From contig JALSQX010000037.1 of assembly GCA_026985075.1 (NCBI GenBank), positions 1-52,175 on the forward strand: DNA of 52,175 nucleotides, written 5' to 3'. The first letter of the stretch is position 1; every line of letters begins with the position of its first letter. Source of the stretch: Blastocatellia bacterium. Its GTDB lineage: Bacteria > Acidobacteriota > Blastocatellia > HR10 > J050. Below are positions 24,123 through 51,579 of the stretch, piece after piece. The notes beneath the pieces were generated by a model. The model had not been told where the DNA came from and ran no database searches. It saw only the letters and a program-made list of their open reading frames with translations. Made by a program: the position numbers and the translations under genes.

Positions 24123-24428
24123 CTACCGATATTCACGGGAGAGAAGCGTGTTCTCTCCATCCGCGTACATCCCGAAAGGAACGAAGTGGCTCGCCATGAC
24201 CCCGACTTCGATCGATCGCGATTCGCTCGTCAGGAAGCATATGGAGCGTCTCCCCAACCAGCACGAGGTCATAGAGCCACCGGATCGGTCATCCTGGAGT
24301 TGCTCTTTGTCACAGAGGAAGGAAGAGAGGGAAGCCGCTTGAGTTGACCGCTCGGAAATGCCGAGCAAAGCCATACTCCAAGCTACGATACTGAGTCCCA
24401 TGAAGCATATTCGGTCACCTTCTCTCAT
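24123..24428 (-). CDS. Short putative secreted protein, possibly a 3'-truncated gene
   Basis: A 101-residue frame whose ATG overlaps the stop of the 1251-residue glycosidase as ATGA (24425-24428). It begins with a plausible signal sequence (FMGLSIVAWSMALLGISERS then TQAA), followed by a polar stretch and FVPFGMYADGENTLLSREYR. I recognise no family. No good ribosome-binding site is present apart from the overlap. The next frame downstream continues with protein-like sequence (RLIFNDERFFFPSRGP), so the gene could be frameshifted. It could equally be a chance frame. Confidence 0.3.
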   Translation of the reverse strand: MREGDRICFMGLSIVAWSMALLGISERSTQAASLSSFLCDKEQLQDDRSGGSMTSCWLGRRSICFLTSESRSIEVGVMASHFVPFGMYADGENTLLSREYR

Positions 24429-28180: not shown

Positions 28181-28301
28181 TCCGGGATCGGGTTTGGATC
28201 ACAGGCCAAATCTTCTGCGGTTGGTTCGCCGAGGGCGATCACTCACAGAATCAGGCTCAATCCTGAGAGCGCGAATGACTTCACGGTTTCCGCCTCAACA
28301 G

Positions 28302-29906: not shown

Positions 29907-30205
29907 AGCTCATCTCCTCCCTTTTTTCCGCCTTCTATGACTCGCGGACAGGGGCACTCCGCCCGCGAAAGATCGCGATTCCTCACTCATCGTGGCTCTC
30001 ATCGGTCGGCGCGTCAGAGCCTCGTGTCTATAGAGATCGGCAGTCCAAATCGCGAGCTCGCACAGGATAAAATGGAGACATTCCCCGGTGGGTGTTTCCC
30101 CACCCGGAGAGGGTTTCGGCACCCGCGTCCACGCTGGCTTTTCCTCTTCCAAACGGTCCACGCCACATCTTCGATTGCTCGGCACGGTGTCAGGCCATCG
30201 CCGGC

Positions 30206-32440
30206 TCACGGCGAGAGATCGAGAAGTGTCATGATGGCTTGAGCAATTGTCCAGCGGTAGCGGGCGTAATCTTCCGCTTCGAAGTACGCAATGATCCCCC
30301 GCGCCTCCGGGCCGTAGCGATTCAAGTCGGCCCGCAACTCGGCCAGAAGGGCTTCTGCACGAGCCACTGCATCGGCTTTTGTCGGATCGCCTCGGACGGC
30401 CGCTAACGCCCGTTCCAGAGTGAAGAGATATCGCAAGTCATCGATCCCTTCCCGAACGCCCTCCCAGCGCAGCGTCGGGAGCGTGGGTGCGTAATGGCGT
30501 TCCGGGTCGGGATAGGCATACGCCAGGTCGCCGGTGGGGCCGTCCGTGTCGTCGTAGGGATCACCGAAGAAGACCTGATAGATCCACACCCCTTGCTCCC
30601 GGAAGGGGCTGTTCCAAGCGTAGAATCCCCAGGTGACGCGGGAGAACTCGGGTCGGCCACCCAGGCTACGCGTATTGTAGTAGAAGCCCAGCCGATCCCC
30701 AGAAGATGCCGCGTCGGCCGCAATCTCTTGAAAAGGATGCAGGGGGAGCCAGCGGTCCACCGACCAACCACTGTAGAAACGCACGTCAACGAAGGGATCT
30801 GCTTCCGGAGGCAAGACCTCAGCTCCGTCCAGAGAGACCTCCACCAGCGCGCCCGGCACCCGCTTGATCAGTGGAGCCAGCCAGTAGAATTCGGCTTCCT
30901 TCTGGGGATCGCCGAAGGGTTCGTCTACGGGAAAGAAGTAGATTTGGGGCCAGCCTCGTTCCTGCTGCAGGCGCAGCACAGTGGAGACTACTTCGGTGTA
31001 GATCGCTTCTAGCGTCTGAGTGGCCACTCCGAGGCGTTGCAGGTCACGATGAAGCTGCGAGATGCCGCGCCAATGGACTGGCCCGGTGAATCCCAACTCC
31101 ACCAGCAGATCCATGTGCTGGATCAAATCGCTATAGTCCACCTGGACGGTGCCATCCAGAGCCAGACTGACGGCCACCGGAGTGTAAGCGAAGCCGGAAT
31201 TCATTCCATGGACGCGCATGTCCTCGTGGTCCTGGCGCAGGTAAGCGAAGGGATCACCGGGCAAATGAACGCCATCGAACTCTCGAAGCGGCCGATAGCC
31301 CATGCTGAAGGCGCGATCGGGCGGAGTCTGCAACGTGAAGGGGAGAACCTCCAGCGTCAGCGTCAAGATGCGGGAAGGCGCATTGACCGGGGCGACGGTG
31401 ATGGTGCCCTGATACGTGCCCGGCAGAGCATCAGGTGGGACGTGGATGATGAGCCAGTACTGTCGGGAAGCATTGGCCGGGATATCCTGGGGTGTGTTGT
31501 AATCCAAAATTTCAGGCACCAGCTCGGTCTCCTCGGGAGCGCTGTGGTTGTGGCGGCGCTTGGTCATCACTCGCACGACGCGCAGGTCGAGCGCGGCGGC
31601 AGGGATGACGGCACGAGCGCTTGGAGAATGAAGGGTCAAATCACTGATGCTCACCATTACGTCACGTAACGATTGGCGAGCATAGATCGCGAAAGTCAGA
31701 GGCTCGTATTCGCCAGGAGTAGCAAAGGTCCACAGAGTGGAGGTGATCTCGTCCGGCTCGGGGATCGTGGAGGGAAGGATGTGCTCCAGCCAGGAGCGAA
31801 CATACAGGACGTAGTCCGAGTAAGAGTCGAGGTAGCTGCGATCAATCGGTGGTTTCTCGATCCCCGATGGGACCCATGTGGGATCGGTCGTCAGAACGAT
31901 GGCGTCCATGCGCATGGGAGGACTATCAGGGTCGTCCCGGCGCAGTTGCAGGGTGTGCGGATTACCCGCTGGGTCCAGGTCCAGGTTCAGGCCGCGGGTA
32001 TCCAGTCGGATCCACCGGAAAGCGAGATCAGGGCCATAGGTCGGTCCCCGTTGGAGAATCGTGGCCGGAATTGGCGGCTGGTCGTCCACGGTCCAGGAGA
32101 AGAGAGCATCCGCCGGCCAGAGGGCGATCCAAACGGCGCGATAATGACCGGGAGCGGGAACGCGCAGGGCATAGTCTGCATACCAGTAACCGGGCGGATC
32201 GAAAGGTCGGCCTTTGCGGCCAGGCCAAAACAGGAGGTACTCCTGGTCGCTGCAATGGCGACAGAAGCGGCCACGGGTGGCGTAGCTGGCGTGGGGAAAG
32301 TTGCTCCTGGCGAAGGCTTCCGCCTCCAGCCAGACCCAGGACGCCGAGCCCGCGCTGCCCTTCTCGGACGCTCCGTGCAATCTCAGCGTGAGAGCCGGCA
32401 GGAGCAGACACAAGCCCAAAATCATCGCCAGTCGTGTCAC
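30206..32440 (-). CDS. Exported DUF4091/GH123-like glycosidase
   Basis: A 744-residue protein with a signal peptide (MILGLCLLLPALTLRLHG). The N-terminal ~180 residues form a carbohydrate-binding-like beta domain (WLEAEAFARS, YADYALRVPAPGHYRAVWI). A second beta domain contains PGEYEPLTFAIYARQSLRDV. The catalytic barrel follows (DMRVHGMNSGFAYTP, IYFFPVDEPFGDPQKE with a D-E pair, VRFYSGWSVDRWLP) and the DUF4091 signature LRWEGVREGIDDLRYLFTLE lies near residue 660. Related GH123 enzymes are beta-N-acetylgalactosaminidases that use substrate assistance with a D-E pair. Start GTG 32440 has AGGAGG seven bases upstream. The likely role is cleavage of an N-acetylated hexosamine linkage (inference from the family). 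Confidence 0.85.
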   Translation of the reverse strand: MTRLAMILGLCLLLPALTLRLHGASEKGSAGSASWVWLEAEAFARSNFPHASYATRGRFCRHCSDQEYLLFWPGRKGRPFDPPGYWYADYALRVPAPGHYRAVWIALWPADALFSWTVDDQPPIPATILQRGPTYGPDLAFRWIRLDTRGLNLDLDPAGNPHTLQLRRDDPDSPPMRMDAIVLTTDPTWVPSGIEKPPIDRSYLDSYSDYVLYVRSWLEHILPSTIPEPDEITSTLWTFATPGEYEPLTFAIYARQSLRDVMVSISDLTLHSPSARAVIPAAALDLRVVRVMTKRRHNHSAPEETELVPEILDYNTPQDIPANASRQYWLIIHVPPDALPGTYQGTITVAPVNAPSRILTLTLEVLPFTLQTPPDRAFSMGYRPLREFDGVHLPGDPFAYLRQDHEDMRVHGMNSGFAYTPVAVSLALDGTVQVDYSDLIQHMDLLVELGFTGPVHWRGISQLHRDLQRLGVATQTLEAIYTEVVSTVLRLQQERGWPQIYFFPVDEPFGDPQKEAEFYWLAPLIKRVPGALVEVSLDGAEVLPPEADPFVDVRFYSGWSVDRWLPLHPFQEIAADAASSGDRLGFYYNTRSLGGRPEFSRVTWGFYAWNSPFREQGVWIYQVFFGDPYDDTDGPTGDLAYAYPDPERHYAPTLPTLRWEGVREGIDDLRYLFTLERALAAVRGDPTKADAVARAEALLAELRADLNRYGPEARGIIAYFEAEDYARYRWTIAQAIMTLLDLSP

Positions 32441-32592
32441 GGTTTCACCTCCTCCTCGCCCGGCTCATAGATCCCGCAATTGAGAGGATACCCTTGGGCG
32501 GTGGCCGCCTGAGAGACCAGAAAAGTTCGTGCGGCTCGTTGTTCCCTGCCACCAGATTCTCCCACAGGCGTACGTCGAGGACGTCGGTTCAT

Positions 32593-33040
32593 CGCGTGTA
32601 GGGTCGTCCAGATTCAAGAAGCCTTCCTCCCGCCGTTCCAAGAGTGACGGTGTGGGATTGGTACGGCTACTGATCCCGAACAACATATCAGTTACGAATG
32701 AACGCACCGTCATGCGAGACACCCGAAGTGCCACTCCCTTGTCCTGGTTCGGCAATAAAGGTACCGGCCGAGATGCCCTTCATCTCCCTCGCTGCCTGGC
32801 TGTTCAGTAAAATAACCGATCTCTCGGGCTGGCTCATGTATGCTGCCGCCGTACGGTCCGGTCATACGGACTTTCTTCATCACGCGCCATCAGATCACAA
32901 GTCGCCGCGCAGGAACGCCCTCCTCGTCGTAGGCGCGAGCTCATGAGCGACTCCCGTCGAAATAGGAACACAGCCGATGCGGGAAACCAATACTCGAATG
33001 GAGGTTTCGGTCGTCTTCACGCCCCTGCGCATCTTCACCT
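32593..33040. other. Non-coding gap inside the hydrolase island
   Basis: About 450 bases with no frame that has both a start signal and protein-like composition. It splits the 27-kb run into two possible transcription units and should hold the promoter of the DUF4091-GH39-giant protein unit. I saw no insertion sequence ends and no clear terminator. Confidence 0.45.
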
Positions 33041-33268
33041 TTAAGACGAAACCGCTCGATGAGGAGTTTGAAAAATATCTCTTCGGAACGAGGACCCGAG
33101 TGATCGAGCGGACGACCGCATCACGTCCTTGCCCATCAGTCCCTCAAGCGCCCTGATCGAAGATTCCCATATGGGGATGAATGGCTGATCCCAATCCAGA
33201 AAGGACCAGCGCCTCATCGTCCGAGAGTCGATCTCGACCACGACGAGCATCCGCTCCAGACCGCTCAT
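33041..33268 (-). CDS. Short hypothetical protein coupled to the GH-propeller gene
   Basis: A 75-residue frame beginning with an ATG that overlaps the stop of the upstream gene (ATGA, 33265-33268). The first 50 residues look protein-like (RMLVVVEIDSRTMRRWSFLD, FIPIWESSIRALEGLMGKDV), the last 25 do not. No family is recognised and there is no independent ribosome-binding site. It could be a degraded remnant or a chance frame. Confidence 0.25.
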   Translation of the reverse strand: MSGLERMLVVVEIDSRTMRRWSFLDWDQPFIPIWESSIRALEGLMGKDVMRSSARSLGSSFRRDIFQTPHRAVSS

Positions 33269-35634
33269 CGGTGCTCGATGTCCCATCCCTCGGCGAACTC
33301 CATCAGAACGAGCTTCAAGGTCACTTCGGCGCGCCGTTCGGTCCCGAAATCGACGCCCAGCGTTCCCGCCAGGAATTTCCCATTGGGACTGATATCTGAG
33401 GCGGCGACGATGGTGCGCCTGCCCAGATATTCGGGAGCTTCGGGATCGTTGAAATAGGTCAGCCGCTCCTTATGCGTCCCATCGGCCGTCATGAGCCAAT
33501 ACTCGCGCTCCTGCGGTTGCGCCGGCCAGTTGGGATCGTCAAAATCAAGCTCGTAGCGAGAGGTAACATTGCTCATGTAAACGATCGTGTCACCGTCGGG
33601 CGAGATGGACGCGTCCTCTTCCCACACGGTCGGCGAGTTGTGCAAATTAATCAATCGACCGGTCGGCACATCAAGAATATACTGGTCCATTCCATACTCG
33701 TGTTGACCATCCAGATTTCCGGCCAAAAGCAACCGCCGACCATCGGGGAAAAATCCCATACTGGTGACGTAATTGCCGCCCACGTCCTCGGCGCGGAGAA
33801 TGACGCGCTCGTTCGCCAATCGTGGGCCACCTTCGTCGACGATGAAATCGGCCATCTTGATCTGCCATCGTCCCCAGTTATGGTGACCTCCCTCGCCATA
33901 TCGCTCGGTCCAGACGAGAACCGCGCCATCCGGCGAAAAGTGGGGATTCACCACGCCAAAGGTGGGCGTCGGATCATCAAAACCTCTCTTGATGGGGATA
34001 TCGGTCAATGGCCAGAATCGATCGCCCTCCGGTGTCGTCGCCCAGAGATTGGCATAGAGTCCCAGGCCGGGATCGCCGAGCCATTTCATCCACAGGCCGA
34101 AATGCTCCTCCGTTTCGGAAACGAAAACAATATACTGTCCCGAGGGATGAAAGACGGCATTTCCATTGTGCCTCTGAGGAACGCCCGGTCGGCCCTCGGT
34201 GAGCGACCGCCGAATCGTTCCGTTCACATCCATCAGATAAACGTCGGCGAACCCATCGTCATTCTTCCGGTCAAACACGATGAGGTCGCCCGAAGGTGAG
34301 AAGCGCGGACGAGCCCCTTGTTGCTGAACGAGGCGAATGCTCTTGAGGCGAGGGCTCTTCCCCCTCACCGCCATCTGTCCTCCCCTGAATGCGATCGTTC
34401 GCGAGCCCGCCGCCTCGGCGATCAAGGCGCCATACCGAAGACCCGTCTGAGAGAAACGACCGGCGAGGAGGTTCTGGACGGCCGCCTGATCCGAGAGCTG
34501 GCGGAGCCGAGCGTAGGGGAGCCAGCGCGTGCGCCGATTATAATCCAGGTAAGCGAAGAAGTACGTGCTCCAGAATGCTGACATGAATTCGATGCCCTGA
34601 GCCCGAGCCAACTCGACGATGACCTCCAGAAACTTCTGGTCCAGAGGTTCCCAGAAAGAGAAGACATCCCGCCGGAAGGCTTCACTCCAGGTCTCCGTGC
34701 CCAGTTCCGCTTGGCCGACTTTGTAGAGCCATGCTTCGCCCACGATGATGCTCTTATGCTGAGCGCGGGCGAGCTCGGCCAAGTCGACTGCCCGTCGCAA
34801 AAAGCCCCGCACGATGGGATAGATGTGCAGATCGATGTAATCAAGCTCGGGCAGACGCACGAGTTCGTGGATGAACCGCGGATCGTCCCAGGTTCCCGCT
34901 CCGGCTCCAACTCGTGTCTCTTCGGGATCGAGCCCATCGAGGATGAATGCTATCAGCTCGGCGTATTTTTGAGGATCACGTAATTCCACCAGGCCCGTAT
35001 TCCTGGCCTCGGTGGAGGGCTCATTGCCGATGGTGAGGTAGTCGGGCCGGATCTCACGAGCGATGATCTCGGCCACCTGACGCCGCCCTCGCTTGAATTC
35101 CTCGAAGGTCAAACCGGAATAGTCGACCGATACGGAGGTAAAGTTCGGGTCTCGGAACATCGCCCCCGTCCCCACCAGGAGAACCATTCGTCGCCTCCGG
35201 ATTTCGGCGGCCAGCCGTTTGTAAAAATCGAGAAATTCTTGAGCGCGAGGGAAGTTCGGCGCCAGCAGCGGATAGCCGATGAAGACTTTCACCCCTTTGA
35301 TACCCAAAGAGGCCAGCGCGTCCAGATAGATGGTGGCGCCCAGCAGAGCGTCAGGCGCCAGCAACTGCTCTCCTCGATGGGCGTTGGCCGAGAGCAACTC
35401 GGCGGCGAAGGTGATCCTTCGTGGCTCACTGGGAACGCCGATCTCTCGTTGGAATTCCTCCAGAGTCTCCCGAAGCTCGTCGAATAAAGCGTGATATTCT
35501 GATGGGACTTCGCTCCCCGTCGAGATGAACGTAGACCTTATCAATCCGGTCAATCCCACGAATCCAACCAGGAGGATCATCGTCCAGATCATGCCCCTCA
35601 TGTTGACCATTGTTCCCATCTCACATCTTTTCAT
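33265..35634 (-). CDS. Exported GH-A-type glycosidase fused to a TolB-like beta-propeller
   Basis: A 789-residue protein with a signal peptide or membrane helix (MIWTMILLVGFVGLTGLI). Residues ~70-370 form a barrel closely related to module 2 of the 1251-residue protein; shared blocks include KVFIGYPLLAPNFPRAQEFL, YLTIGNEPSTEA with acid/base Glu205, SIIVGEAWLYK with nucleophile Glu300 and DVFSFWEPLDQKFLEVIV. Residues ~430-789 are a six-bladed propeller of PD40/TolB repeats (RPRFSPSGDLIVFDRKN, NAVFHPSGQYIVFVSET, VNPHFSPDGAVLVWTER, DASISPDGDTIVYMSN, ASDISPNGKFLAGTLG). Such propellers bind proteins or polymers. A barrel joined to a TolB propeller is unusual; the propeller may dock the enzyme at the cell surface or on substrate (inference). 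Confidence 0.82.
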   Translation of the reverse strand: MKRCEMGTMVNMRGMIWTMILLVGFVGLTGLIRSTFISTGSEVPSEYHALFDELRETLEEFQREIGVPSEPRRITFAAELLSANAHRGEQLLAPDALLGATIYLDALASLGIKGVKVFIGYPLLAPNFPRAQEFLDFYKRLAAEIRRRRMVLLVGTGAMFRDPNFTSVSVDYSGLTFEEFKRGRRQVAEIIAREIRPDYLTIGNEPSTEARNTGLVELRDPQKYAELIAFILDGLDPEETRVGAGAGTWDDPRFIHELVRLPELDYIDLHIYPIVRGFLRRAVDLAELARAQHKSIIVGEAWLYKVGQAELGTETWSEAFRRDVFSFWEPLDQKFLEVIVELARAQGIEFMSAFWSTYFFAYLDYNRRTRWLPYARLRQLSDQAAVQNLLAGRFSQTGLRYGALIAEAAGSRTIAFRGGQMAVRGKSPRLKSIRLVQQQGARPRFSPSGDLIVFDRKNDDGFADVYLMDVNGTIRRSLTEGRPGVPQRHNGNAVFHPSGQYIVFVSETEEHFGLWMKWLGDPGLGLYANLWATTPEGDRFWPLTDIPIKRGFDDPTPTFGVVNPHFSPDGAVLVWTERYGEGGHHNWGRWQIKMADFIVDEGGPRLANERVILRAEDVGGNYVTSMGFFPDGRRLLLAGNLDGQHEYGMDQYILDVPTGRLINLHNSPTVWEEDASISPDGDTIVYMSNVTSRYELDFDDPNWPAQPQEREYWLMTADGTHKERLTYFNDPEAPEYLGRRTIVAASDISPNGKFLAGTLGVDFGTERRAEVTLKLVLMEFAEGWDIEHR

Positions 35635-35672: not shown

Positions 35673-38600
35673 CTAATTCAGAACGGTCATCGGCATCAAT
35701 GAGGACATCGACATCAAAAGAGCACTCCTTGAGCGCATCATCAGAGGAAGGTCACCATCGCGAATGAGAACGTCAGCACTCACAGAAATCCCATCGCTCA
35801 GGCTCCGCCTCAACGAGCGTCGTAAGGGGTCGATCCTCAGCCGCTCGATGGCGGCCAACCGGGTCACATCATGCAGAGCGCCAGTGCCGTTCGCATCGCG
35901 CCTGCACGCTTTCTCTGATGGAGCTTGTAGTTCCAGAAAAGTGACCGAGTGCGGTGGGAGAGCGAGGTGAGTCGGAGGCTCCCGCAGTGGCTCCTCGCTG
36001 AGCACGACGTTCGTGGGGTAGCGATCATTATCGGCCGCGGGGTCTTCAGCCCATAGCCGCCACAGGCGCGCAGAGGCGGGCGTGAATCCGTTGATGTGGA
36101 GCGTAGCCGTCAACGGCCTCTGCTCAGCGTTATTGATCATGGCGAGGCGCAAGATGCCACCGTCGGGAGAGAGCGCCGCCGCCGCGACGACGTAAGGAAC
36201 CTCTCGGTCATAGGCCATGGCCGAGGGTGAGTCCACCGCCACCGGGAGTACGCGACTGCCCGGCCAAGTGGAGAATCCCTGAAAAACATACCCCATGGGC
36301 GCGATGCTATAATTGGTCTGACTGCGAATCAGGGCCAGGTTACCCCCACTCAGCGCGAACTGCTCGGCGTAGGCCACTGGCGTATGCTGACTCGCATTGA
36401 GCAGGCGGATGAACCATTCCGCAGCGATGACTGCTCCTTCCAAGGTCCGATTGATGTGCCAGTAGTCCTCATTCAAGAAAATATTCCACTCCGTGACGGC
36501 GATAGAGGGTCTCTCGGACACGGCCAGGCTCTCCAGATATTGATCTATCTTCCCGTACACCCCGGCGAGATGATCGGCGCGCTCCAGGGCGATCTGGCGC
36601 CGGGCCGCGTAAGAACCATACGCCCGGATTGGGATCGAAATGCCGTACTGATGGCGAACGTAGAAGTCCATTTGCTGAAAGATCTCACGCATGCGGTCCG
36701 GATCGGCGATGGGAGCGCCGTCGCGAAAAGGGAGCACTGCCGCGCCAATGTGAATGGGCACCGACGAAGGAGCCGCGCGCATGGCGCGAGCGAAATCCAG
36801 AAAGCCATCGTGGCCATAGGTGGTGTACTCCACCAGGAAGAAGCTCCCCGCCGGGGGCATCGCGCCATGGACTCCGTCACCGAACCGGAGCACCCCGGCC
36901 TCGGCATCCAGGGCGAAGACACGGGCATCTGAAGGCTGGGTGCTGAGATCCTCTACCTGATGCCACTCCTGGTAGATGCGATTCTCCACCTGCTGTCGCG
37001 TCGCCGCCCAAAAGACGCGTACATCACGCACCGGTGGAAATCGCAGGGTGTAGGTCTGATGCGGCCCACCCTTGGCTTTGAAGACGTCTCCCTTCGCGCC
37101 CACCGGGTCGTATGCCTGGCTCGATGTGTTATCGTAAAAGCCGCGACGCTCCTCCTCACCACCAAAAAAATATTTCTCGGGATTCTCAGCAGTCCAGGAG
37201 TAGTACCACATGTGCGGTTGATTCTCCTCGTTGCCAATCTCGAAGTAGCGCACGTTGATCGGCTCGGGAAACCCGAGAGCGGCGCGCCGTGCGCCCCACG
37301 GTGAGTCGATCGGGCCGTTCAAGAACTCCACCAGGTCGGCGGCGTCCTGGGCCGTCATGGTACCGAAGTTGACCGTGATGCTCAACTCGGCGCCGGTATC
37401 GCGCACAAACTGGAGGATGCGGGCGATGTCGACTCCATCGGGCCGGGGCACGCGCCGACCGGGTTTGATCATCTCGTTGCGCTTCCAGTCGTAGGCTGAG
37501 GCGTTATTCCCGCCAGGCCAGCGAATCACGCGCACGCCAATTTGGCGCGTGGCATCTACGAAGTTGGCGCGTTCGACCGTCCGAGCGGCCGGAGCCAGGC
37601 TGGTCAGGTTACTCCCCCACAGACGTCCCTCAATGAGGGGGCCGGGACGGGTCGCATCGACGGTGATGATGACCTCGGAGCTTGAAGTGACCGAATCGCG
37701 CAGCAGGCCACCGCCACCCCCGCTCTCACTATTGTGGGGAACGCCCCGGGTCTGGCGCGAGATCTCGCCCCGTTCGCCCTGAGCCGTGCTCTTCTCCAGG
37801 ACATCGATCCGCTCGGCGTGGGCCAGGATCTCATCGCGGTAGAACCATGCTCGTTTGAGCTCACCGCGGCTCTTGAGCGGCACTTGATCGGCATAATGAG
37901 GAGCATCGGGATTCTCGCTGATCCCATAGGGGAGGAGGCTATAGGCCTCCACTCGCGGCCCGAGCGCGACCACCATCGTAAACGATGAACCATGATCCGC
38001 GTAGATCCTTCCCCGCTCGTCCAGCGATCCCGAGGCCATCCAGAGCGTCGGCGGTTGCTGCTCGCCGGCGATGGGAAGGTCGAACGTCCCCCGACGGATG
38101 CGGTGAATCTGCCCCCAGGGGACGTCGATCGAGCCGTAGAGGCTCTCCATCTCGGAGACGGCAGCTTCCAGCCCCCCGAGTGGATCCTGGGCCCGTTGGC
38201 GCTTGACGTGGTGCCACCAGAAATAAAATAGCGTCATTCCCGATTGATCGATGTCCCCGCGGCGATTCCAATTCCGGAACAATGTGATAGCTGGCGCCAG
38301 GGATCGGCGCCGTTCCGGCGAAGCGGATTCGTAGGCGGCGAAGATTTCCGGCAGGGTTTCTTCTGCCGCCATAACGAGTGTGTCGGTGGCGAGCTTCAAG
38401 GCATCGGTCATCGTCCAATCGTGGGCTTGCCAAAGGACATCGCTCGCCCGCCGGCCACGGTCGTTGAGCGAGGCGGCGGGGACGATGAGATACGATGGAA
38501 ATCGCTCGGGGTCCATCTCCAGACCAGAAGTAACGAACCAAGGCATGACGTTGTTGTTCTGCATCCAGTCGCTCTCGGGGTTCTCCACCCGAGGAAGCCC

Positions 38601-39887
38601 GTCGAAGGGGAGAATCTTAGAACTCCAGCGGGCGTTGGGGTCCCAACCGGGCCGCCACTCGGCTCGAGTCCACGCCTCGCTGCGCTCGTGCAGGCGGGCG
38701 TTGTAGACGTAATAGAGATTCCCCTGAGCATCGGCGGCCATCACGTTCCAGAGGAGGAGCTGGTGCATGGCCATCGCACGCTTGAACTGTTCGATGTCTT
38801 GGGCCCGGGCCATAGCCAGGAATTGCGCGAGGGTGTTGAAACAGTCCGAGCCTTCCAGCGCCACGACGAGGGCTCGGTGGTGCTCTGGTTCGGAGTGAAC
38901 CACCCAGCCGTTGCGAGTGTAGGAGAGCTTTCGCACGACGGGAGCGCTGCCTCGCACTTTGAAGGATTCCTCGCGGACCATCATCCGCTCCCAGCCCGAC
39001 TCGGTACGGTAGCGCCTGGGATCATCGGGATGAAGCTCCTCCACAAAGACGTCGGCCAGGTCAGGCGCATTACGGGTCATCGACCAGGCGATCTTGCCGT
39101 TATGCCCCATGACGATGAGTGGGCTCCCGTAGAACGTGGCACCGTAGACATTGAGCGTCTCGCCGACCAGATGAGCCTCGTACCAGCGGTTCATGCCTGA
39201 CCATGGGAGGTGAGGGTCCATGAGGAGAATGGGCGCTCCCCTCGCGGTCCGCGAAGAACCAACGACCCACTGATTAGAAGCCTCTACGGAGACACCCAAC
39301 GGCTGTGAGGCGGCCATGAAGGCCGAATGCTGCCGGAACTCTTTGGCTGCTGCGCTCAGCGAGCGGGAGATCATCGTATAATGGGCGAAGCGCAGCACTT
39401 GAGTGACCGTCACCTCGAAACCGCGGGCCCATTCGGGAAGCCCAGCGCGGTGCTCGCGGATATATCGATTGATTCCCCGGACGAATGCCCCCACCAGTTG
39501 CAGGGTCTCTGGATCGATGATGGCGAGGAGTTCATCGTCTCCATAGTTCAGCACGGCTCGAGCTTGAACATCACTCTCCAGATACGACGGCCCAAAAAAC
39601 TCGGCCTTCCGACCTTCGGCCGTCAAGTAGTTCTCGAGCATGTCGAGAAGATGATCCTCAGCCTGCGCATAGCCAAAACCGTAGAGCGCTTCTTCGTCCG
39701 TAGCCGCATAAATATGGGGCACTCCGAACGCGTCGCGGACGATCTCAACGCGATCGGGGGCCACCTGCACAGCCGCCGTTGTCACGGGATGGAAGGGTTC
39801 CCGGGACAATGAGTGAAAACTGATCATCCCAACCCCACCACAGAAGATGCTCAAGAGCACGATTCGTTGCACGGTGCCTTTAATCAT
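35673..39887 (-). CDS. Fusion of a penicillin-amidase-type Ntn acylase with a GH51-like glycosidase
   Basis: A 1404-residue exported protein. Residues 40-700 are an S45 acylase: VEIVRDAFGVPHIYAATDEE, LYGFGYAQAEDHL, the autocleavage and nucleophile Ser204 in VEASNQWVVGSS, MDPHLPW, and the C-terminal GISENPDAPHYADQ. After a GGGGG linker (724-728), residues 740-1324 resemble GH51 arabinofuranosidases: VRVIRWPGGNNASAYDW, RYFEIGNEENQP with acid/base Glu888, AVTEWNIFLNED with nucleophile Glu1134, and the closing ALPPHSVTFLELQAP. A beta insert with RFGDGVHGAMPPAG sits inside the barrel. The last ~80 residues are not GH51-like and look like read-through of non-coding DNA. Start 39887 has AAGGAGG. Autoprocessing after residue 203 would leave the glycosidase on the large acylase subunit. 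Confidence 0.82.
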   Translation of the reverse strand: MIKGTVQRIVLLSIFCGGVGMISFHSLSREPFHPVTTAAVQVAPDRVEIVRDAFGVPHIYAATDEEALYGFGYAQAEDHLLDMLENYLTAEGRKAEFFGPSYLESDVQARAVLNYGDDELLAIIDPETLQLVGAFVRGINRYIREHRAGLPEWARGFEVTVTQVLRFAHYTMISRSLSAAAKEFRQHSAFMAASQPLGVSVEASNQWVVGSSRTARGAPILLMDPHLPWSGMNRWYEAHLVGETLNVYGATFYGSPLIVMGHNGKIAWSMTRNAPDLADVFVEELHPDDPRRYRTESGWERMMVREESFKVRGSAPVVRKLSYTRNGWVVHSEPEHHRALVVALEGSDCFNTLAQFLAMARAQDIEQFKRAMAMHQLLLWNVMAADAQGNLYYVYNARLHERSEAWTRAEWRPGWDPNARWSSKILPFDGLPRVENPESDWMQNNNVMPWFVTSGLEMDPERFPSYLIVPAASLNDRGRRASDVLWQAHDWTMTDALKLATDTLVMAAEETLPEIFAAYESASPERRRSLAPAITLFRNWNRRGDIDQSGMTLFYFWWHHVKRQRAQDPLGGLEAAVSEMESLYGSIDVPWGQIHRIRRGTFDLPIAGEQQPPTLWMASGSLDERGRIYADHGSSFTMVVALGPRVEAYSLLPYGISENPDAPHYADQVPLKSRGELKRAWFYRDEILAHAERIDVLEKSTAQGERGEISRQTRGVPHNSESGGGGGLLRDSVTSSSEVIITVDATRPGPLIEGRLWGSNLTSLAPAARTVERANFVDATRQIGVRVIRWPGGNNASAYDWKRNEMIKPGRRVPRPDGVDIARILQFVRDTGAELSITVNFGTMTAQDAADLVEFLNGPIDSPWGARRAALGFPEPINVRYFEIGNEENQPHMWYYSWTAENPEKYFFGGEEERRGFYDNTSSQAYDPVGAKGDVFKAKGGPHQTYTLRFPPVRDVRVFWAATRQQVENRIYQEWHQVEDLSTQPSDARVFALDAEAGVLRFGDGVHGAMPPAGSFFLVEYTTYGHDGFLDFARAMRAAPSSVPIHIGAAVLPFRDGAPIADPDRMREIFQQMDFYVRHQYGISIPIRAYGSYAARRQIALERADHLAGVYGKIDQYLESLAVSERPSIAVTEWNIFLNEDYWHINRTLEGAVIAAEWFIRLLNASQHTPVAYAEQFALSGGNLALIRSQTNYSIAPMGYVFQGFSTWPGSRVLPVAVDSPSAMAYDREVPYVVAAAALSPDGGILRLAMINNAEQRPLTATLHINGFTPASARLWRLWAEDPAADNDRYPTNVVLSEEPLREPPTHLALPPHSVTFLELQAPSEKACRRDANGTGALHDVTRLAAIERLRIDPLRRSLRRSLSDGISVSADVLIRDGDLPLMMRSRSALLMSMSSLMPMTVLN

Positions 39888-40158: not shown

Positions 40159-41325
40159 TCAAGGAATACGCGCGCATAAAAGTGCTTGCGCACACTCTGG
40201 CTGCACGACGAGGCGAGGAGATATGGATGGGCCGAATCGCTTCGTTCCCTGACACTGGGACAGGCCCTCTGGTTTGTGGATATATCTCGACCGGCGCATC
40301 TCCTCTCGGTACCGCTCCAGGATGTAGGTATTGACGTCGATGCGGGCATTCCCTCGACGCGCTTGATCGGGATCTCGCCGCCGCGTCCAATCCTCGTTCA
40401 GATAACACAATGCCTTGATCTCAGGATGAGCGGCAAGCCAATCGAAGAAAATCCGAAACCACCCCGCCCAATCCCGTCGGCCATCGCTGTGGTCGGGATC
40501 AACGTCATCAGGACTGATGTCCACAAACCAGGCCGCCGCCTCCGACAAGAAGACGGGCTTACCCCGCCGTCGCGCCATCTGGAGGAATCGTTCCGTCTTG
40601 CCTCTGGGCGTGCGCCGCCCACGCCGGATGTCCGGCACCCGGGGATCGAAGTGATCGACCCGAAACACATCGTGCCCGAACCAATCGACATACTCATCGC
40701 CGGGATACCAGAGCGACTGACCGCCACGCACGGCATCGAAGTCGTCCGGAGCATCGGGCTCGTAGCACCAGATGAACGCCGCCTCCTGGACGCCGGCAGC
40801 ACGGAAGCGATCGACGATCTTGCGATAGGCGGCCACGTAGATGACGGGCGTATATCCGTTCCAGGGACCGTTGAACTCAAACCCGGGCCGCACAAACAGC
40901 GGCTGGAACGGCCGAACGACTTCGGCCAGCCCATTGATGAGCGAATCGAACCGGCTCGTCTCGGCGATCTCCACGTCGGTCGGGCCATGCACCCCCTGGA
41001 AGGCAATGCTCAACTCGATGATCCGCCCATCGCGCCGCACTTCCTCCAGACAGTCGCTCAGGACATCGAGATTCACCCCGCGGGTCCCCGGGATGCTCAC
41101 CCACCGCTTCTCAATGAGAGGCTCCAGCTCCGGCCCCAGAGCGGCAATGTATTCCTCGGCCGCCCCCTTACTCGTCGCCTCCCCCACGCCGTGATACACC
41201 CGCCCATCCGGCGGTTCAAACAGGGCACGGTCAGACGATAGAGCCCACGGCGCAACCCGCTCAAGTGCGCTGCCTCGTCCTCCAAGAACGAGGAGCTTGA
41301 GAAAATCCCGGCGCTTCGTGTTCAT
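40159..41325 (-). CDS. GH26-like endo-glycosidase, TAT-exported
   Basis: A 388-residue protein starting MNTKRRDFLKLLVLGG, a twin-arginine-like export signal. The barrel carries RPGFEFNGPWNGY with putative acid/base Glu150 and GKPVFLSEAAAWF with nucleophile Glu262, matching the RPxxExNG and SExA patterns of GH26 mannanases and related lichenases. FIWCYEPDAPDDFDAV lies between them. Start 41325 was chosen for GAGGAAATAG upstream; the frame extends to 41424 without support. Homology appears to end at HKPEGLS; the last ~32 residues are a cysteine-containing tail of doubtful origin. A second, severely truncated copy of this gene's 3' end lies at 22597-22674. Confidence 0.8.
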   Translation of the reverse strand: MNTKRRDFLKLLVLGGRGSALERVAPWALSSDRALFEPPDGRVYHGVGEATSKGAAEEYIAALGPELEPLIEKRWVSIPGTRGVNLDVLSDCLEEVRRDGRIIELSIAFQGVHGPTDVEIAETSRFDSLINGLAEVVRPFQPLFVRPGFEFNGPWNGYTPVIYVAAYRKIVDRFRAAGVQEAAFIWCYEPDAPDDFDAVRGGQSLWYPGDEYVDWFGHDVFRVDHFDPRVPDIRRGRRTPRGKTERFLQMARRRGKPVFLSEAAAWFVDISPDDVDPDHSDGRRDWAGWFRIFFDWLAAHPEIKALCYLNEDWTRRRDPDQARRGNARIDVNTYILERYREEMRRSRYIHKPEGLSQCQGTKRFGPSISPRLVVQPECAQALLCARIP

Positions 41326-41454
41326 GGCTATTTCCTCGACGTGGAACTCAGGCTGACGTATGCCTCTGAAGCCTGGTGCATTCGGCCAGAATTTGCCGGG
41401 CTCCAACATATCAATGGGCTGCACGCTCCACGAAAAGCTCCCATGGCAGAATGC

Positions 41455-43200
41455 TCAAGGTGCAATGGCGTGCACAATCAGACCATCTTCCGACACGACC
41501 ACTGGTGCCCCCGGGAGTGGCATCAATCCGTTGATGTATTCCTCGATATTGGTATAGCCGTCCTCATCGGCATCGCCGCTGGCATCGTACACGTCAGGAT
41601 TCAGCCCGTGTGTAATCTCCCACTCGTCCGGCATGCCATCGGCGTCGCTGTCTGCCGGAGCGTCGAAGCTGGTCGCATAGTCCGGCCAGCCGCCCGCATT
41701 GTTGTCACAGTGGACGATGAAACGATAGTGCGAGCCGACTTTCGGGATCACATCCCATGGCCGGTCCACGGTCACCACGTTGATCCGGGGGGCGAAGCGC
41801 ACCACATCCCGCACCTGACCCGCCGCGGCGCCCGTGGTGATCTCGATGCTGTTGCCGTCGTACGTGTGCCGGTTTTGCGGATTGGGCCCCTGTCGAGTAT
41901 CACCGGGATGATGCTCGACGGTGACCGTGTTCGAGGTGGCGCCCCGGACTCGGCCTTCGGGATAATAGATGGGATCGGCATCGACGCAATCGCGGATTCG
42001 ACCGGTGCGCGTCTCGATTTCGGTCAAAATCCGTCGATCCACGACATCTCGCTGCCGGCCGGTCGTCAGGTTGCCCGCGCCATTGGGGCCGCTGAGTTGA
42101 GCATAAAGGGTCTCGACCGGATCGACCGCGACGCCGGAGAGCGCTCCCACCGGCACATCGCTGCGATACCGTTCGTCGCCATCCACGACCAACCACTCGT
42201 CGCCGCTATCGGTGGGGCGGAAGGGGCCGAGATTCCCTTGCACATATACCCGTGTCGTGCCGCAGTCTGAGCCGGGGCAACCGATCACCACGCCCCGGCT
42301 GTCGGGCGGCGTATTCGGCCCGACGATGAAATGGTTGCCGATGATGTTGACCAGAGCATCTTCTCTCACCTGAAGACCTCTGTTGCCCCAATTGTAGATG
42401 ATGTTGTTGATGGCCTCGCCGTCCACGCCATTGGCATACTGCGGATTGCGGTTGTAGCCATGAGCAATGATGTTATGGTGCACGCTGATGCGATCCATGG
42501 GATCTTTGCCATAGAGAGCGAACGCAAACCCATGCGGCCCTTCCTGATGAATGCTGTTGTGCAGTGGCTCGGTGATGAAGTTGTATTGAAATGTTACATC
42601 ATGCGCATAGCCGACGCCAACGACCTCGTCAGTAGACCAGCTCAGCGAATTATGATCCACGATGATGTTGTAAGAGGGATTCTCTGTCGTGCCCCAGATG
42701 GTGATGGCGCGGCGAATACCCGGCCGTGGCCCTTCGGGATCGTCGCCAGGGCGGATGGTGAGCCCGCGAATGATGATGTCGTGGGTACTGACGATACGGA
42801 TGCCGGCGCCGCGGAGCATGATGCCATCGCCAGGTGCAGTTTGCCCAGCCACGGTCAGATAGGGGTGGGTGACGCGGATGTCTTTCTGCAGATCGATCAC
42901 CCCGCCGACCTCGAAGACCACGATGCGCGGCCCTTCCGCTTCTGCGGCCTCACGGAGGCTGCCGGGGCCGGAGTCGTTGAGATTCGTCACCTTGATGACG
43001 CGTCCGCCCCGGCCACCGGGAGTCGTGGAACCGAAGCCCTCGGCGCTGGGGAAAGCGGGCAGAGCCACACGCTGTGTTGCGGGTTGATCCTGCTTGATCG
43101 GTGCGGCTTGGGAATCCCGCGCGTCACTCTCGATGTGAAAACGACCGCTGAACAAGAGCAGGCTCAGGAGCATGATCGCTGTCAATGAGAGATCTTTCAT
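41455..43200 (-). CDS. Secreted pectate lyase-like protein (PL1-type right-handed beta-helix)
   Basis: A 581-residue exported protein with a signal peptide (LTAIMLLSLLLFSG). The mature start ALPAFPSAEGFGSTTPGGRG and VIKVTNLNDSGPGSLREAAE are hallmarks of bacterial PL1 pectate lyases. Parallel beta-helix turns follow (DIIIRGLTIRPGDDP, NIIVDHNSLSWSTDEVV, RISVHHNIIAHGYNRNPQYA), including the N-x-Q/R-x-P region near the catalytic Arg. The C-terminus has calcium-type repeats DSDADGMPDEWEITHGLNP and DADEDGYTNIEEYINGL, seen on many secreted polysaccharide lyases. Start 43200 overlaps the stop of the NodB-like gene (ATGA) and has AGGAGG upstream. It should cleave polygalacturonate-like chains by beta-elimination. 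Confidence 0.9.
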   Translation of the reverse strand: MKDLSLTAIMLLSLLLFSGRFHIESDARDSQAAPIKQDQPATQRVALPAFPSAEGFGSTTPGGRGGRVIKVTNLNDSGPGSLREAAEAEGPRIVVFEVGGVIDLQKDIRVTHPYLTVAGQTAPGDGIMLRGAGIRIVSTHDIIIRGLTIRPGDDPEGPRPGIRRAITIWGTTENPSYNIIVDHNSLSWSTDEVVGVGYAHDVTFQYNFITEPLHNSIHQEGPHGFAFALYGKDPMDRISVHHNIIAHGYNRNPQYANGVDGEAINNIIYNWGNRGLQVREDALVNIIGNHFIVGPNTPPDSRGVVIGCPGSDCGTTRVYVQGNLGPFRPTDSGDEWLVVDGDERYRSDVPVGALSGVAVDPVETLYAQLSGPNGAGNLTTGRQRDVVDRRILTEIETRTGRIRDCVDADPIYYPEGRVRGATSNTVTVEHHPGDTRQGPNPQNRHTYDGNSIEITTGAAAGQVRDVVRFAPRINVVTVDRPWDVIPKVGSHYRFIVHCDNNAGGWPDYATSFDAPADSDADGMPDEWEITHGLNPDVYDASGDADEDGYTNIEEYINGLMPLPGAPVVVSEDGLIVHAIAP

Positions 43201-44246
43201 CGCACACCTCCTGTCAACTCTGGAAACGCCGCCCGTGCGATCTCGCTCGCCGTAGCGAAGATCACGCGTCCCTCGGCTGCTTTCTCGGCGACATAACCCA
43301 GAAAACGATCCAGAGCGGCGAGCGCTTCGGGATCAGGCGGATTCTCGCCGCGATTGCCCACGGCGTACTCGCTGATATGCGTCACGAAGCCCCAGGCGGC
43401 TGCGCGCCCCGGGCGCCGCTCTTGCATGTAGCGGAGCGCCGCGTCAAACAAGGTCCGCAGTCGCTCGAAATGGGCGTCGGTCAGCACATCGGCGACGCCG
43501 CGGCCATCCAGATTGGTCCACCACTGCATCGGCGAATGATCCACGAACACAAAATCGCCGTGGGGATCATCGGCACAGATGTTCCCGCCTTGATAATCCG
43601 GCCGCCAGGGAAACATCAGGTTGCCCGTCTCTCCTCCCATGTCATTCCCGATGCCGATCTGGCCGCCGCACCACTGAAACAAGGGGCCAGAACTCAGATT
43701 GATCGTCGCCGCGCGGATCCCCCAGCCGACGTGGCGGGCGATCCCCTCAGACATGACCTGCTGAAACCCGTCAGGTCCGGCCTGGCGAGCGTCCGTCAGC
43801 AGACCGGACGTGACGCGCACATCGAGCCCGCAGATGTCGCTGAGCGCTCGAAGATCGCGTTCATAATCGGCGTAGCGGTGAACGTGCAATCCGATCTCGT
43901 GACCCGATTCGATCAACCGCCGAAAGATGTGGTTCTCACCCTCGTATGCGCAGAGCCCCTCGGCCGTGCCATAGACGACCTCCCACGTCCCTTTCACGCC
44001 ATGGTGCTCGAGCACCTCGGCGATGCCCTCGATGGTCGCGACCATGTTCTCGGCGATGCGTGGATCGAGGGTCCGCAGCGAGGGAGTCGTGTACGGAAAA
44101 TGATCTCCGGCCACGTGAGTGTGGATGGCATAAAAGAAATAGAGCGGCGGGATCTCTTCCGGAGGCGCTTCCATAACGGCATCGCCCACGCCGTTGAGAA
44201 GGAAAAGACTCGCGAGGATGAGCCCCGAGAGCACTTGCCGTTTCAT
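43197..44246 (-). CDS. Exported NodB/polysaccharide-deacetylase-like protein with altered metal motif
   Basis: A 349-residue protein with a signal peptide (MKRQVLSGLILASLFLLNGV). It has the NodB barrel plan: first strand LYFFYAIHTHVAGDH, then EGIAEVLEHHGVKGTWEVVY, SGHEIGLHVHRYADY as motif 2, and AAWGFVTHISEYAVG late. The canonical TFDD motif is replaced by IHTHVAGDH and the H-x3-H of motif 2 by HVHRYAD, so it belongs to a divergent branch shared with the proteins at 45320 and 49092. Start 44246 has GGGGAGAG upstream. Its stop overlaps the pectate lyase start, so both are made together, consistent with de-esterification followed by lyase cleavage (inference). Whether it is a deacetylase is unproven. 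Confidence 0.7.
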   Translation of the reverse strand: MKRQVLSGLILASLFLLNGVGDAVMEAPPEEIPPLYFFYAIHTHVAGDHFPYTTPSLRTLDPRIAENMVATIEGIAEVLEHHGVKGTWEVVYGTAEGLCAYEGENHIFRRLIESGHEIGLHVHRYADYERDLRALSDICGLDVRVTSGLLTDARQAGPDGFQQVMSEGIARHVGWGIRAATINLSSGPLFQWCGGQIGIGNDMGGETGNLMFPWRPDYQGGNICADDPHGDFVFVDHSPMQWWTNLDGRGVADVLTDAHFERLRTLFDAALRYMQERRPGRAAAWGFVTHISEYAVGNRGENPPDPEALAALDRFLGYVAEKAAEGRVIFATASEIARAAFPELTGGVR

Positions 44247-44303
44247 TATCGTTTCTCTCCCCAGCATAACAGACGTCTTTGTCTCATGGTCCCCTCATCA
44301 GCT

Positions 44304-45299
44304 CTATGGGCCGGAAGATGTTGATATCCTTCCAGAACAGCACAAATAGCGCCATACTGGCGCGAACCGAGGGCGGCCATCAGGCAACCGTGGCGTCTTG
44401 CGATCGACCACCACGGCACCGTGGGCGTCGGCGAAGCTCCCCGTGGCGGGCAGCGCGTCGGTATATAGTTGATGAGTGTTCCCGTACGGAGGAGCGGCTC
44501 CGTCTACACTGCGCGGCGGGCCGAAGGCATCCAATCCTAATGCTTCCCAACTCCGCTCGAAGGATGGCCACCCTCTGTCCCGTCGATGGGAGAATCCGAA
44601 GTAGCGCTCGGCAGGAGTGGCGTGCGAGCCGCGCAGCCAGGGTGCCGGTTGCTCCCCCAGGCGATCACCTGGTGAGGCAAACATGACCACGCGAGCCACT
44701 TCGTGCACTTGAGCGATGAACGCGGCATGCCCGCCACCCTGAGAATGACCGGAGACGATGAACTTCGACCAGTCGAGCTCTTCGCCCTCCAAGAAACGCT
44801 CCCACCCTTCGCCCGGATAACGGGCGCTCAGATAACGGAGCAAACTGAGCAGACGGTGCTCAATGGAGTTGGCCGGGGTGACCGTCACTAGCGGCGTGCG
44901 ATCCTCGCCAGTGAGAATCTCGTGTCGGACCCGCTCGTGACACGCGGGATCGGAAGAACCGCGGCAGAGCCGGGCCACCGTCCACGAGTTCGGATACCGC
45001 AGGCCGATGGCCGGAATGCCCTGCCGGACGACCTCCCGCAGAATCAGCCGGCTGTTCTCGGGCACGCCGAACGAGCCGGGCAGGTGGACGAAGAGCACAT
45101 CTCGCGGCGACACCCCCGGATCGAAGTAGACGACGTGCGGCTCCAGCCAATCGTCGATGGCCGGATCTGTCGCTTGGGGAAGGACGAATCGCTCGATGAG
45201 AGTCGCATTGGGCGGACCTTGGCCAAAGCTCACGCTCGACAGCAAGAGAAACCCCAACCAGATCCCTCTCCGCGCACGCGCGAATGGTGAGTTGAACAT
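44304..45299 (-). CDS. Exported alpha/beta-hydrolase
   Basis: A 331-residue protein with a signal peptide (GIWLGFLLLSSVSFGQG). The nucleophile elbow is SGHSQGGGHAAFIAQ, giving the catalytic Ser; DVLFVHLPGSFGVPENSR is the oxyanion-hole strand. It resembles the BPSS1187-type alpha/beta-hydrolases, for which no substrate is known to me. A GTG at 45323 overlaps the previous stop (GTGA), but the ATG at 45299 has GAGGGAG five bases before it and is preferred. It lies between two NodB-like genes, so an esterase role on acylated polysaccharide fits (inference). Confidence 0.78.
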   Translation of the reverse strand: MFNSPFARARRGIWLGFLLLSSVSFGQGPPNATLIERFVLPQATDPAIDDWLEPHVVYFDPGVSPRDVLFVHLPGSFGVPENSRLILREVVRQGIPAIGLRYPNSWTVARLCRGSSDPACHERVRHEILTGEDRTPLVTVTPANSIEHRLLSLLRYLSARYPGEGWERFLEGEELDWSKFIVSGHSQGGGHAAFIAQVHEVARVVMFASPGDRLGEQPAPWLRGSHATPAERYFGFSHRRDRGWPSFERSWEALGLDAFGPPRSVDGAAPPYGNTHQLYTDALPATGSFADAHGAVVVDRKTPRLPDGRPRFAPVWRYLCCSGRISTSSGP

Positions 45300-45319
45300 C
45301 GTATCTCCCTCGGAATCGC

Positions 45320-47383
45320 TCACCGGCCGGCATCTTCGGCCATCTCGACAATGTCCTCCGAGGTGACCACACAGAGATGCTCGGCGGCGTATTGCACCAA
45401 CTCCTCGTATGCCACCCAGATTTGCTCCTCATTCTCGGGTGTTCGCGGACGCGAGGCGTCCGGCGCGTTCAAATCATAAGGTGGCGACTTGGGGCGCGTT
45501 TTCTGTCGATCTTCATAATAGACGAACGCCCAAGGCGTCGCACCCCGGCGATAGAAGTTGTTCTCATGAATCAGGGCGGTGATGAACGGTGGGCGCTCGT
45601 GCGCCCAGTCGTTCAAAAGCCGCTGCAGGCGCTTCCTGGGGTTGTACGCGTCAGCATAGGGCGTGTCGAGTTGGTTCCACCAGAAGGCATCCTGAGGCCC
45701 GCCGGGGACGCTCCAGCGCGTCACGCTGAAGTCGCTCGGTCGGATGAGCAATCCGTGAGTCCACTCGAAAGGCTGATCGGGCTTGGTGCCCGTCTCGTGG
45801 TAGATCACGGTCATCCGGGCTCCCATCTCGGCGAAGAGGGGCAGCGCGACGTCTCGCCAGCGGGCGCTCGGCACGGAAGCGACCACCGGTGCGCGGCCAA
45901 ACACGGCTTTCACATAACTGTAGCCACCCGGTTCATCCCGCAGTAGTCCACCCGTGGTCATATCGAGGCGATACGTCTCGTAGTCGCGCAGCATCTGCTC
46001 CCGTTCCTCAGCAGAGAGCCCCCACAGCCGCCCGTCGAAGCCCGCAACCAGCGGATGCGGCGGGCGAACGTGATAGCTGATCGTCATCGCGCTGTCCTTC
46101 AAGCGCTCGATGATGTCAGGACGCCGTTCCTCGTAAAAGTGGACCATGGGAGCCGTGAAATAGAAATCGCCGCGGACGCCGTATCTTTCGAAGATGTCGA
46201 TCAAATGGTGCAAGGTGTCGGCGCTCTCGTCCAGGTTCTTGAAGTCGTGCACATTGATGGCGAACGTCATGTATCCCCGGCACTCGTCGTCGGGAGCCCC
46301 CTCTGATGGACCGGTGTCCGCGGCAGCCCGCGGATCGACGCCCGGATGTCCCTGCTCCCAGGCGATGAAGGCATCGGCCATCTCCGAGAACGTGGCCCAC
46401 CTCACCCGTCCCTGAGCCACCAAGGGATCGACGACGTCGGTCAAAAATTGATCGATGACGGCGAAGGGCTCGGCGGCGCTCGGGTCTCCGCGGAACTCGC
46501 CGGGATGGACGGTGAAGTGAAACACGTTCACCCGATCGGCGCGCGCGGCGGCCAGCGAGCGCAGAAGATCATCGCGGATCACGTCGAACCACGCTTCCGC
46601 GCCGCCCTCGGCGATGATCTCACGCTTGCGACGAAAGCGCTCCAGGTCCAACAAGCCGTCGGGCAGATAGATCACCGGGCCATGGGGATCGTGGGTGGCA
46701 AACGCCGTCAGGTCGTCAGGATCGGGACCACCGGCAGGTCGCCAAGGGCTCACTCCAATCACGAGTTGGTGAGAACTCTGTGTACGTGGATCTTTCCAAT
46801 CGCCGTTGATATCGAGCCCGGCACACGAGGCCGCCTCAAGCAGTTCCGGATAGAGATTCCCGCCGCTCCAGTAACGAATTGGGCCGCGAACGCCGGCTTG
46901 ACGAATGGCCTCGATCTCCTCGCGCATCACGGCGCACCAGCGCTCGGGCGGCAGGCGCTCCGGATCCCGACCGAGGTGCGCGTCCTCGTGGAAGTGCAGG
47001 GCCAGCTCATGGCCGCGAGCTTCCAGATCACGCAGCACGGGACTGTCGAACCGAGCGGCCGCCGTTGTGAATGGCGTTTGTACCTGGATGGTGAGCTTTC
47101 CACCGTGACGTTCCACAAGATCGGCCAACTCGTAGAGGTCTTCGACGTGGCGTTGGAAAAACTGCGGATTGTTGTAATCCCCCCTCCCGCTACGATACCC
47201 CTGGGCCGTCGTGCCCAAAGGCTCGACGTGCACGCCGATGGTGAACAGCAACGTGGGCTCTCCACCCGTTTGAGCGGCACTCCCGCTCAGGAACGCGGCG
47301 ACAAGGATGGCCCATCCTGCTATGCTCCAGATGAGAAGAGTCGCTCGGGATGTGAGCTTGCGCATGCGCAATCCTCCCTTCAT
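45320..47383 (-). CDS. Exported protein with two tandem NodB-like deacetylase domains
   Basis: A 687-residue protein with a signal peptide (ATLLIWSIAGWAILVAAFLS). Domain 1 (about 44-350) has LLFTIGVHVEPLGTTA at strand 1, ARGHELALHFHEDAH at motif 2 and VNVFHFTVHPGEFRGD. Domain 2 (about 370-680) has YMTFAINVHDFKNLDE, GVRGDFYFTAPMVHFYEE, ISYHVRPPHPLVAGF and PFITALIHENNFYRR. In both, the TFDD metal-binding motif of NodB enzymes is replaced by an H-x-E or H-D pattern, while a His-x3-His remains in domain 1. The ATG at 47383 has GGGGAGGAG. Its product heads a string of coupled genes (GTGA overlap with the next). Metal-dependent hydrolysis is plausible but the reaction is not established. Confidence 0.7.
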   Translation of the reverse strand: MKGGLRMRKLTSRATLLIWSIAGWAILVAAFLSGSAAQTGGEPTLLFTIGVHVEPLGTTAQGYRSGRGDYNNPQFFQRHVEDLYELADLVERHGGKLTIQVQTPFTTAAARFDSPVLRDLEARGHELALHFHEDAHLGRDPERLPPERWCAVMREEIEAIRQAGVRGPIRYWSGGNLYPELLEAASCAGLDINGDWKDPRTQSSHQLVIGVSPWRPAGGPDPDDLTAFATHDPHGPVIYLPDGLLDLERFRRKREIIAEGGAEAWFDVIRDDLLRSLAAARADRVNVFHFTVHPGEFRGDPSAAEPFAVIDQFLTDVVDPLVAQGRVRWATFSEMADAFIAWEQGHPGVDPRAAADTGPSEGAPDDECRGYMTFAINVHDFKNLDESADTLHHLIDIFERYGVRGDFYFTAPMVHFYEERRPDIIERLKDSAMTISYHVRPPHPLVAGFDGRLWGLSAEEREQMLRDYETYRLDMTTGGLLRDEPGGYSYVKAVFGRAPVVASVPSARWRDVALPLFAEMGARMTVIYHETGTKPDQPFEWTHGLLIRPSDFSVTRWSVPGGPQDAFWWNQLDTPYADAYNPRKRLQRLLNDWAHERPPFITALIHENNFYRRGATPWAFVYYEDRQKTRPKSPPYDLNAPDASRPRTPENEEQIWVAYEELVQYAAEHLCVVTSEDIVEMAEDAGR

Positions 47384-47415
47384 GGTCTCCTCCCCGGTAT
47401 CGCAAGAGAGCAGGC

Positions 47416-49023: not shown

Positions 49024-49091
49024 CGGATCACCTCCTGACGAGTATCCACGGAACGCGCGTCCGGCGCGAGTCCTGTAGCCGGTATCAGGAT

Positions 49092-51566: not shown

Positions 51567-51573
51567 TATTGGA

Positions 51574-51579
51574 CCTCCT
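51574..51579 (-). promoter_or_regulatory. Shine-Dalgarno AGGAGG deciding the GTG start at 51566
   Basis: AGGAGG (51579-51574) with a 7-base spacer TCCAATA precedes the GTG codon. No comparable ribosome site stands before the two ATGs downstream, so the longer signal peptide is favoured. Confidence 0.7.

Follow-up and report, generated by a model that had tools for sequence, protein, structure and literature searches.

Two groups of described enzymes come closest to the protein considered here. One comprises the glutaryl-7-aminocephalosporanic acid and cephalosporin acylases of family S45 (PDB 3s8r and 1keh), to which homology spans residues 42–690; the N-acyl homoserine lactone acylases of the PvdQ and MacQ type also have the S45 family and nucleophile in common with this protein. 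The other comprises the GH51 alpha-L-arabinofuranosidases, such as that of Thermotoga petrophila (PDB 3s2c). Unlike the glutaryl and cephalosporin acylases, the protein reported here carries a C-terminal GH51 domain. As far as we have searched, its acylase–GH51 order of domains is new, the two enzyme families themselves being known. The author of an earlier note on this DNA knew of no described enzyme with this order. That statement agrees with our searches, since no fused acylase–GH51 relative was found in the genomes examined and literature queries for such a fusion returned nothing.

The DNA analysed (hereafter the window) is a stretch of 52,175 nucleotides from a Blastocatellia bacterium. 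The fused gene belongs to a co-directional run (24425–51641, minus strand) that encodes secreted-type, mostly glycan-acting proteins. It is a single open reading frame of 1404 codons with 0 internal stops, and its parts and neighbors are listed below.

40159–51641, minus strand: upstream co-directional genes for GH26-like and pectate-lyase-like proteins, NodB-like deacetylase candidates, a BPSS1187-family protein, an M6-like protease and an 849-aa secreted protein
35673–39887, minus strand: fused ORF of 1404 aa, with signal peptide, S45 acylase, linker, GH51-like glycosidase and unconserved tail (ORF and Pfam)
39789–39887, minus strand: likely signal peptide, residues 1–33 (MIKGTVQRIVLLSIFCGGVGMISF...), from a hydropathy of 2.26 over 15 aa and inspection
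37827–39749, minus strand: S45 penicillin-amidase domain, residues 47–687 (Pfam PF01804 Penicil_amidase, E 6.7e-136; model pLDDT 86.7; Foldseek E 2e-53)
39276–39278, minus strand: Ser204, N-terminal nucleophile of the beta chain (alignment to solved S45 beta chains)
39210–39212, minus strand: His226, by position beta-His23 of glutaryl acylase (alignment)
37722–37796, minus strand: novel linker, residues 698–722 (LEKSTAQ...HNSES; local alignments score no higher than with shuffled DNA; low pLDDT)
37707–37721, minus strand: GGGGG, residues 723–727 (DNA alignment to the GH51 gene of the nearest relative, which has GRGAG)
35883–37685, minus strand: GH51-like domain, residues 735–1335 (profile match E 1.2e-36; 52–90% identity to separate relatives)
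37227–37229, minus strand: Glu887, GH51 acid/base, in a GNE motif (invariant in 9 sequences)
36822–37007, minus strand: baseplate-J-like insert inside the barrel, residues 961–1022, with the motif RFGDGVHGAMPPAGS (TIGR02243, E 5.7e-8)
36489–36491, minus strand: Glu1133, GH51 nucleophile, in a TEW motif (AVTEWN; invariant in 9 sequences)
35676–35882, minus strand: unconserved C-terminal tail, residues 1336–1404 (DNA comparison with the nearest relative)
24425–35634, minus strand: downstream co-directional genes for a 789-aa protein with glycosidase-like domain and beta-propeller, a GH123-like protein, a GH39 protein and a 1251-aa glycosidase-like protein

The proposal of the earlier note that one frame joins two complete domains is borne out. 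The frame is uninterrupted, the GH51 half has its profile match, and the acylase covers positions 2–673 of the 675 in the Pfam profile, which indicates full-length S45 homology. Ser204, which the note had named as the nucleophile, matches the first beta-chain residue of many solved S45 enzymes (e.g., 3jtq_B and 1ghd_B). By sequence, the solved protein nearest to this half is glutaryl-7-aminocephalosporanic acid acylase. Among known folds, that of glutaryl-7-aminocephalosporanic acid or cephalosporin acylase is nearest to the acylase model (TM 0.85 by query and 0.89 by target), and the nucleophile and beta-His23 are in place, but identity to these enzymes is only about 25%. Moreover, Ser634 occupies the position of Glu624 in the HGETW motif of 3s8r, a residue that we take to be Glu455-beta of the catalytic triad; a literature search on this triad residue found nothing. 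Foldseek also links the model to MacQ (E 2e-41) and PvdQ (E 1e-32), and the NCBIfam PvdQ model matches at 152 bits, far under its equivalog cut-off of 950 bits. As a family member, the acylase half should hydrolyze an N-acyl amide via Ser204.

The nucleophile is not constant across the wider family. Gly or Ala replaces the Ser in S45 relatives from Hydrogenedentota (L086, L087, L088 and L143), and Cys replaces it in one from Planctomycetota (L080). Several such variants have long low-complexity C-terminal tails, and some of the relatives that lack the Ser may be inactive as acylases.

For the GH51 half, a Pfam search with the single sequence returns weak pieces (residues 845–888 and 1133–1314) that miss the gathering scores (24.1 versus 27 bits and 20.7 versus 22.2 bits). 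Membership in GH51 is secure because a profile built from nine relatives matches solved GH51 arabinofuranosidases. The catalytic residues of clan GH-A are invariant across the nine GH51-like sequences; the earlier note had recognized this pair of glutamates correctly but numbered each one too high (888 and 1134 for Glu887 and Glu1133). The structural model (pLDDT 65) is too weak for detail, with GH51 entries at the top of its matches (E 5e-20, TM ~0.35). The GNE and TEW motifs are common to this protein and the known GH51 arabinofuranosidases, from which it differs in its low overall identity, its secretion, its scores below the Pfam GH51 cut-offs and its additional insert. Judged by family, this half should cleave a furanoside or related glycoside by a retaining mechanism that uses Glu887 and Glu1133.

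The insert, which sits between the two catalytic glutamates and matches a baseplate-assembly family, is common to the separate GH51-like relatives (L070 and L072–L078). This insert-bearing subfamily is thinly scattered over genomes of several phyla.

A close GH51-like gene is present in only one of 147 relatives, the same-genus Acidobacteria bacterium isolate J050 (G001; RFHM01000183.1, L070), whose protein is 90% identical over 597 aa, insert included. Unlike the GH51 half of the fusion, it has a gene to itself and carries its own signal peptide; the gene adjoins GAF/PP2C-like and Lon-like genes on the opposite strand. Neither an ortholog of the acylase nor any close acylase was found in the G001 genome. 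Literature queries about this isolate gave no results. A scan of the species-genome collection gave seven further relatives from other phyla at 52–74% identity, in records labelled Bipolaricaulota, Caldilineae, Chloroflexi, Bacteroidetes and Verrucomicrobia, and none of their frames includes an acylase domain. All the GH51-like relatives but L077, which is truncated at its 5' end, start with a signal-peptide-like stretch. Samples of 396 genomes from the same phylum and 400 from the phylum of G166 gave no additional close GH51-like gene, and viral contigs yielded no relative of the enzyme. In the Chloroflexi representative (L076:7878-10964), one frame of 1028 aa encodes the GH51-like domain and, behind it, a second glycosidase-like domain.

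The nearest acylase, from Caldilineae bacterium M2005 (L071), is 73% identical over residues 44–697 of the window protein. It is a separate secreted protein of 684 aa whose own stop lies near window residue 697, and its gene adjoins a putative esterase gene, not a glycosidase gene. Acylases within the bacterium's own class reach at most about 35–37% identity, and the contrast between these values suggests that the acylase arrived by lateral transfer.

When the genomes of 11 relatives were searched with the whole fusion, none held both close partners: carriers of the GH51-like enzyme had no close acylase, and carriers of a close acylase had no GH51-like enzyme. Thus the search for the same domain pair in other genomes, which the earlier note had advised, did not find it, and in G001 the GH51-like gene stands alone, an absence that the note had held to point to assembly error or a recent accidental fusion. 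Nor were other S45–GH fusions present among the acylase loci whose frames were read. Long S45 frames in Hydrogenedentota bear tails that are mostly of low complexity, the extension of the long L147 frame is N-terminal and GC-rich, and a 1416-aa frame in G040 in fact reads 783 aa with a stop.

The site of the join can be placed by aligning the window DNA with that of G001. Homology resumes at about residue 723 in the same codon register, where the five glycines that the earlier note had seen in the joining segment stand opposite the GRGAG of G001, directly behind the hydrophobic core of its signal peptide. The join lies just 5' of these glycines, inside the former GH51 signal peptide; the start codon and hydrophobic core are missing, and the codons behind them are kept in the same frame. 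The linker resembles neither separate gene's flank above the level of shuffled DNA, and the model predicts it with very low confidence, as expected of a disordered stretch. The other two frames across this region contain stops. No signal-peptide-like stretch occurs in the fusion frame at the join, and the only moderately hydrophobic stretch nearby is in another frame and is broken by an Arg. The join sequence occurs only once in the genome, and apart from the GH51 gene of G001 it gives only chance-level short matches. From the in-frame homology to G001, the lost signal-peptide core and the single-copy join, all read from DNA sequence, we conclude that the fusion seen in this assembly arose by an event of the deletion type, not by loss of a stop.

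The other end of the gene has also changed. Homology to G001 fades at about residue 1340, the tail of the G001 protein is itself unrelated, and the stop is displaced. The last ~70 residues of the fused protein read like translated intergenic DNA.

The surrounding gene cluster is dispersed in G001. The genes for the 849-aa and M6-like proteins are on contig C316, those for the BPSS1187-family and pectate-lyase-like proteins on C82, and the GH51 block on C270, where it adjoins the PP2C/Lon pair. Because the parts are scattered in this way, the join in the window coincides with a synteny break relative to G001. Two Bipolaricaulota have relatives of the 849-aa and BPSS1187-family genes upstream of a GH51-like gene on the same strand, as in the window, which supports the order of the window contig. 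The cluster is thus prone to rearrangement. Against this background a fusion by deletion is plausible, and the same background is a reason to treat the assembly with caution.

Several details of the cluster can be recorded here. Within the window, the 1251-aa protein is homologous to a relative of the 789-aa protein, and the pectate-lyase-like protein (41455–43200, minus strand) is closest by sequence to the solved pectate lyase 9buj and to VexL. In G001, the GH123-like gene (L037:2983-3666) has lost its middle, corresponding to about residues 90–638 of the window's protein, and a remnant of ~51 aa (L191:7364-7516) of the 356-aa deacetylase-like protein lies on C82 between the BPSS1187-family and pectate-lyase-like genes. 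The segment L037:9392-9446, between the GH51 and PP2C-like genes of G001 and at the synteny break, has extra copies on C129 and C244.

We consider it about 70% probable that the gene arose by a recent fusion specific to this lineage, in a cluster of secreted glycan enzymes that is undergoing rearrangement, and that it is not an established two-in-one enzyme. Two separately secreted enzymes of a glycan-acting cluster would have become one gene in this lineage when the acylase stop, whatever gap followed it, and the GH51 gene's start codon and signal-peptide core were lost by deletion or rearrangement while the frame stayed open. The product would be exported once, via the acylase signal peptide, and would mature by self-cleavage between Ala203 and Ser204, in the manner of S45 enzymes. 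The cut would leave an alpha chain (roughly 170 aa) and a second chain (about 1200 aa) in which the beta chain continues into the GH51 domain, the two catalytic bodies being connected by a flexible linker. In the simplest view, the arrangement would be a tolerated co-secretion of two independent enzymes.

Among the other explanations, the one that survives best, although we think it improbable, is that an assembly error joined two contigs at this point, where the genome in fact has two normal genes, one for the acylase and one for the GH51-like enzyme. The genome is a draft in 105 contigs, and the join sits at a synteny break where the nearest relative has other genes, and no acylase, upstream of GH51. 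However, a chance misjoin sits poorly with a join that is in frame, lacks a stop and falls just behind a signal-peptide core, and the site contains no repeat liable to confuse an assembler. Genes that lie upstream in the window are found upstream of GH51-like genes in Bipolaricaulota as well, and the counterpart of the G001 PP2C/Lon pair lies inside a 252,740-base contig of the window genome, so that the site is not left dangling.

It is less likely still that the fusion was selected as a bifunctional enzyme whose acylase and GH51 domains attack the same molecule one after the other (for example, an N-acylated sugar or aminouronate polymer). Neither half is damaged, both are conserved, and the cluster includes deacetylase-like proteins and the VexL-matching pectate-lyase-like protein, all of which would suit such a role. 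Yet the searches turned up no fused relative, none of the other genomes examined combines a close acylase gene with a close GH51-like one, and the neighbor of the nearest acylase gene is an esterase candidate. The earlier note had suggested that the two domains suit an N-acylated sugar or acyl-amino-sugar polymer, or degradation of acyl-homoserine lactones coupled to attack on biofilm matrix. With GH51 alone in G001 and the partners apart in all 11 genomes, joint function lacks comparative support, and we doubt that the covalent linkage helps to strip an N-acyl group and a sugar in succession from a single extracellular molecule.

The fusion might instead mark the start of decay, with one half or the whole gene losing function. 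Its recent origin, the displaced C-terminal stop with its unconserved tail and the loss of cluster parts in G001 (the GH123 deletion and the deacetylase remnant) are in keeping with this. However, the dN/dS of the GH51 half against G001 is 0.14, alongside 0.14 and 0.11 for two neighboring genes, these values being sums over the time before and after fusion. None of the 171 columns conserved in seven outgroups has changed in the window lineage alone, and derived GH51 residues are equal in number in the window and G001 lineages (20 and 20). On these three grounds the GH51 half is not visibly decaying and, with every named catalytic residue present, we regard decay as an unlikely account. A missed stop or frameshift between two intact genes can be dismissed, because the GH51 start and signal-peptide core are gone and homology to G001 runs in the fusion frame.

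If the join is real, the fused gene offers a clean natural example of two secreted enzymes becoming one, in which the second signal peptide was lost just behind its core and the maturation cut leaves the partner on the beta chain. It would also indicate that an S45 beta chain can carry a C-terminal domain of ~600 residues. Otherwise, it is a fusion confined to a single lineage, like many others, and reveals little about substrate. The more lasting point may be the separate GH51-like subfamily with its baseplate-like insert, which is found across several phyla.
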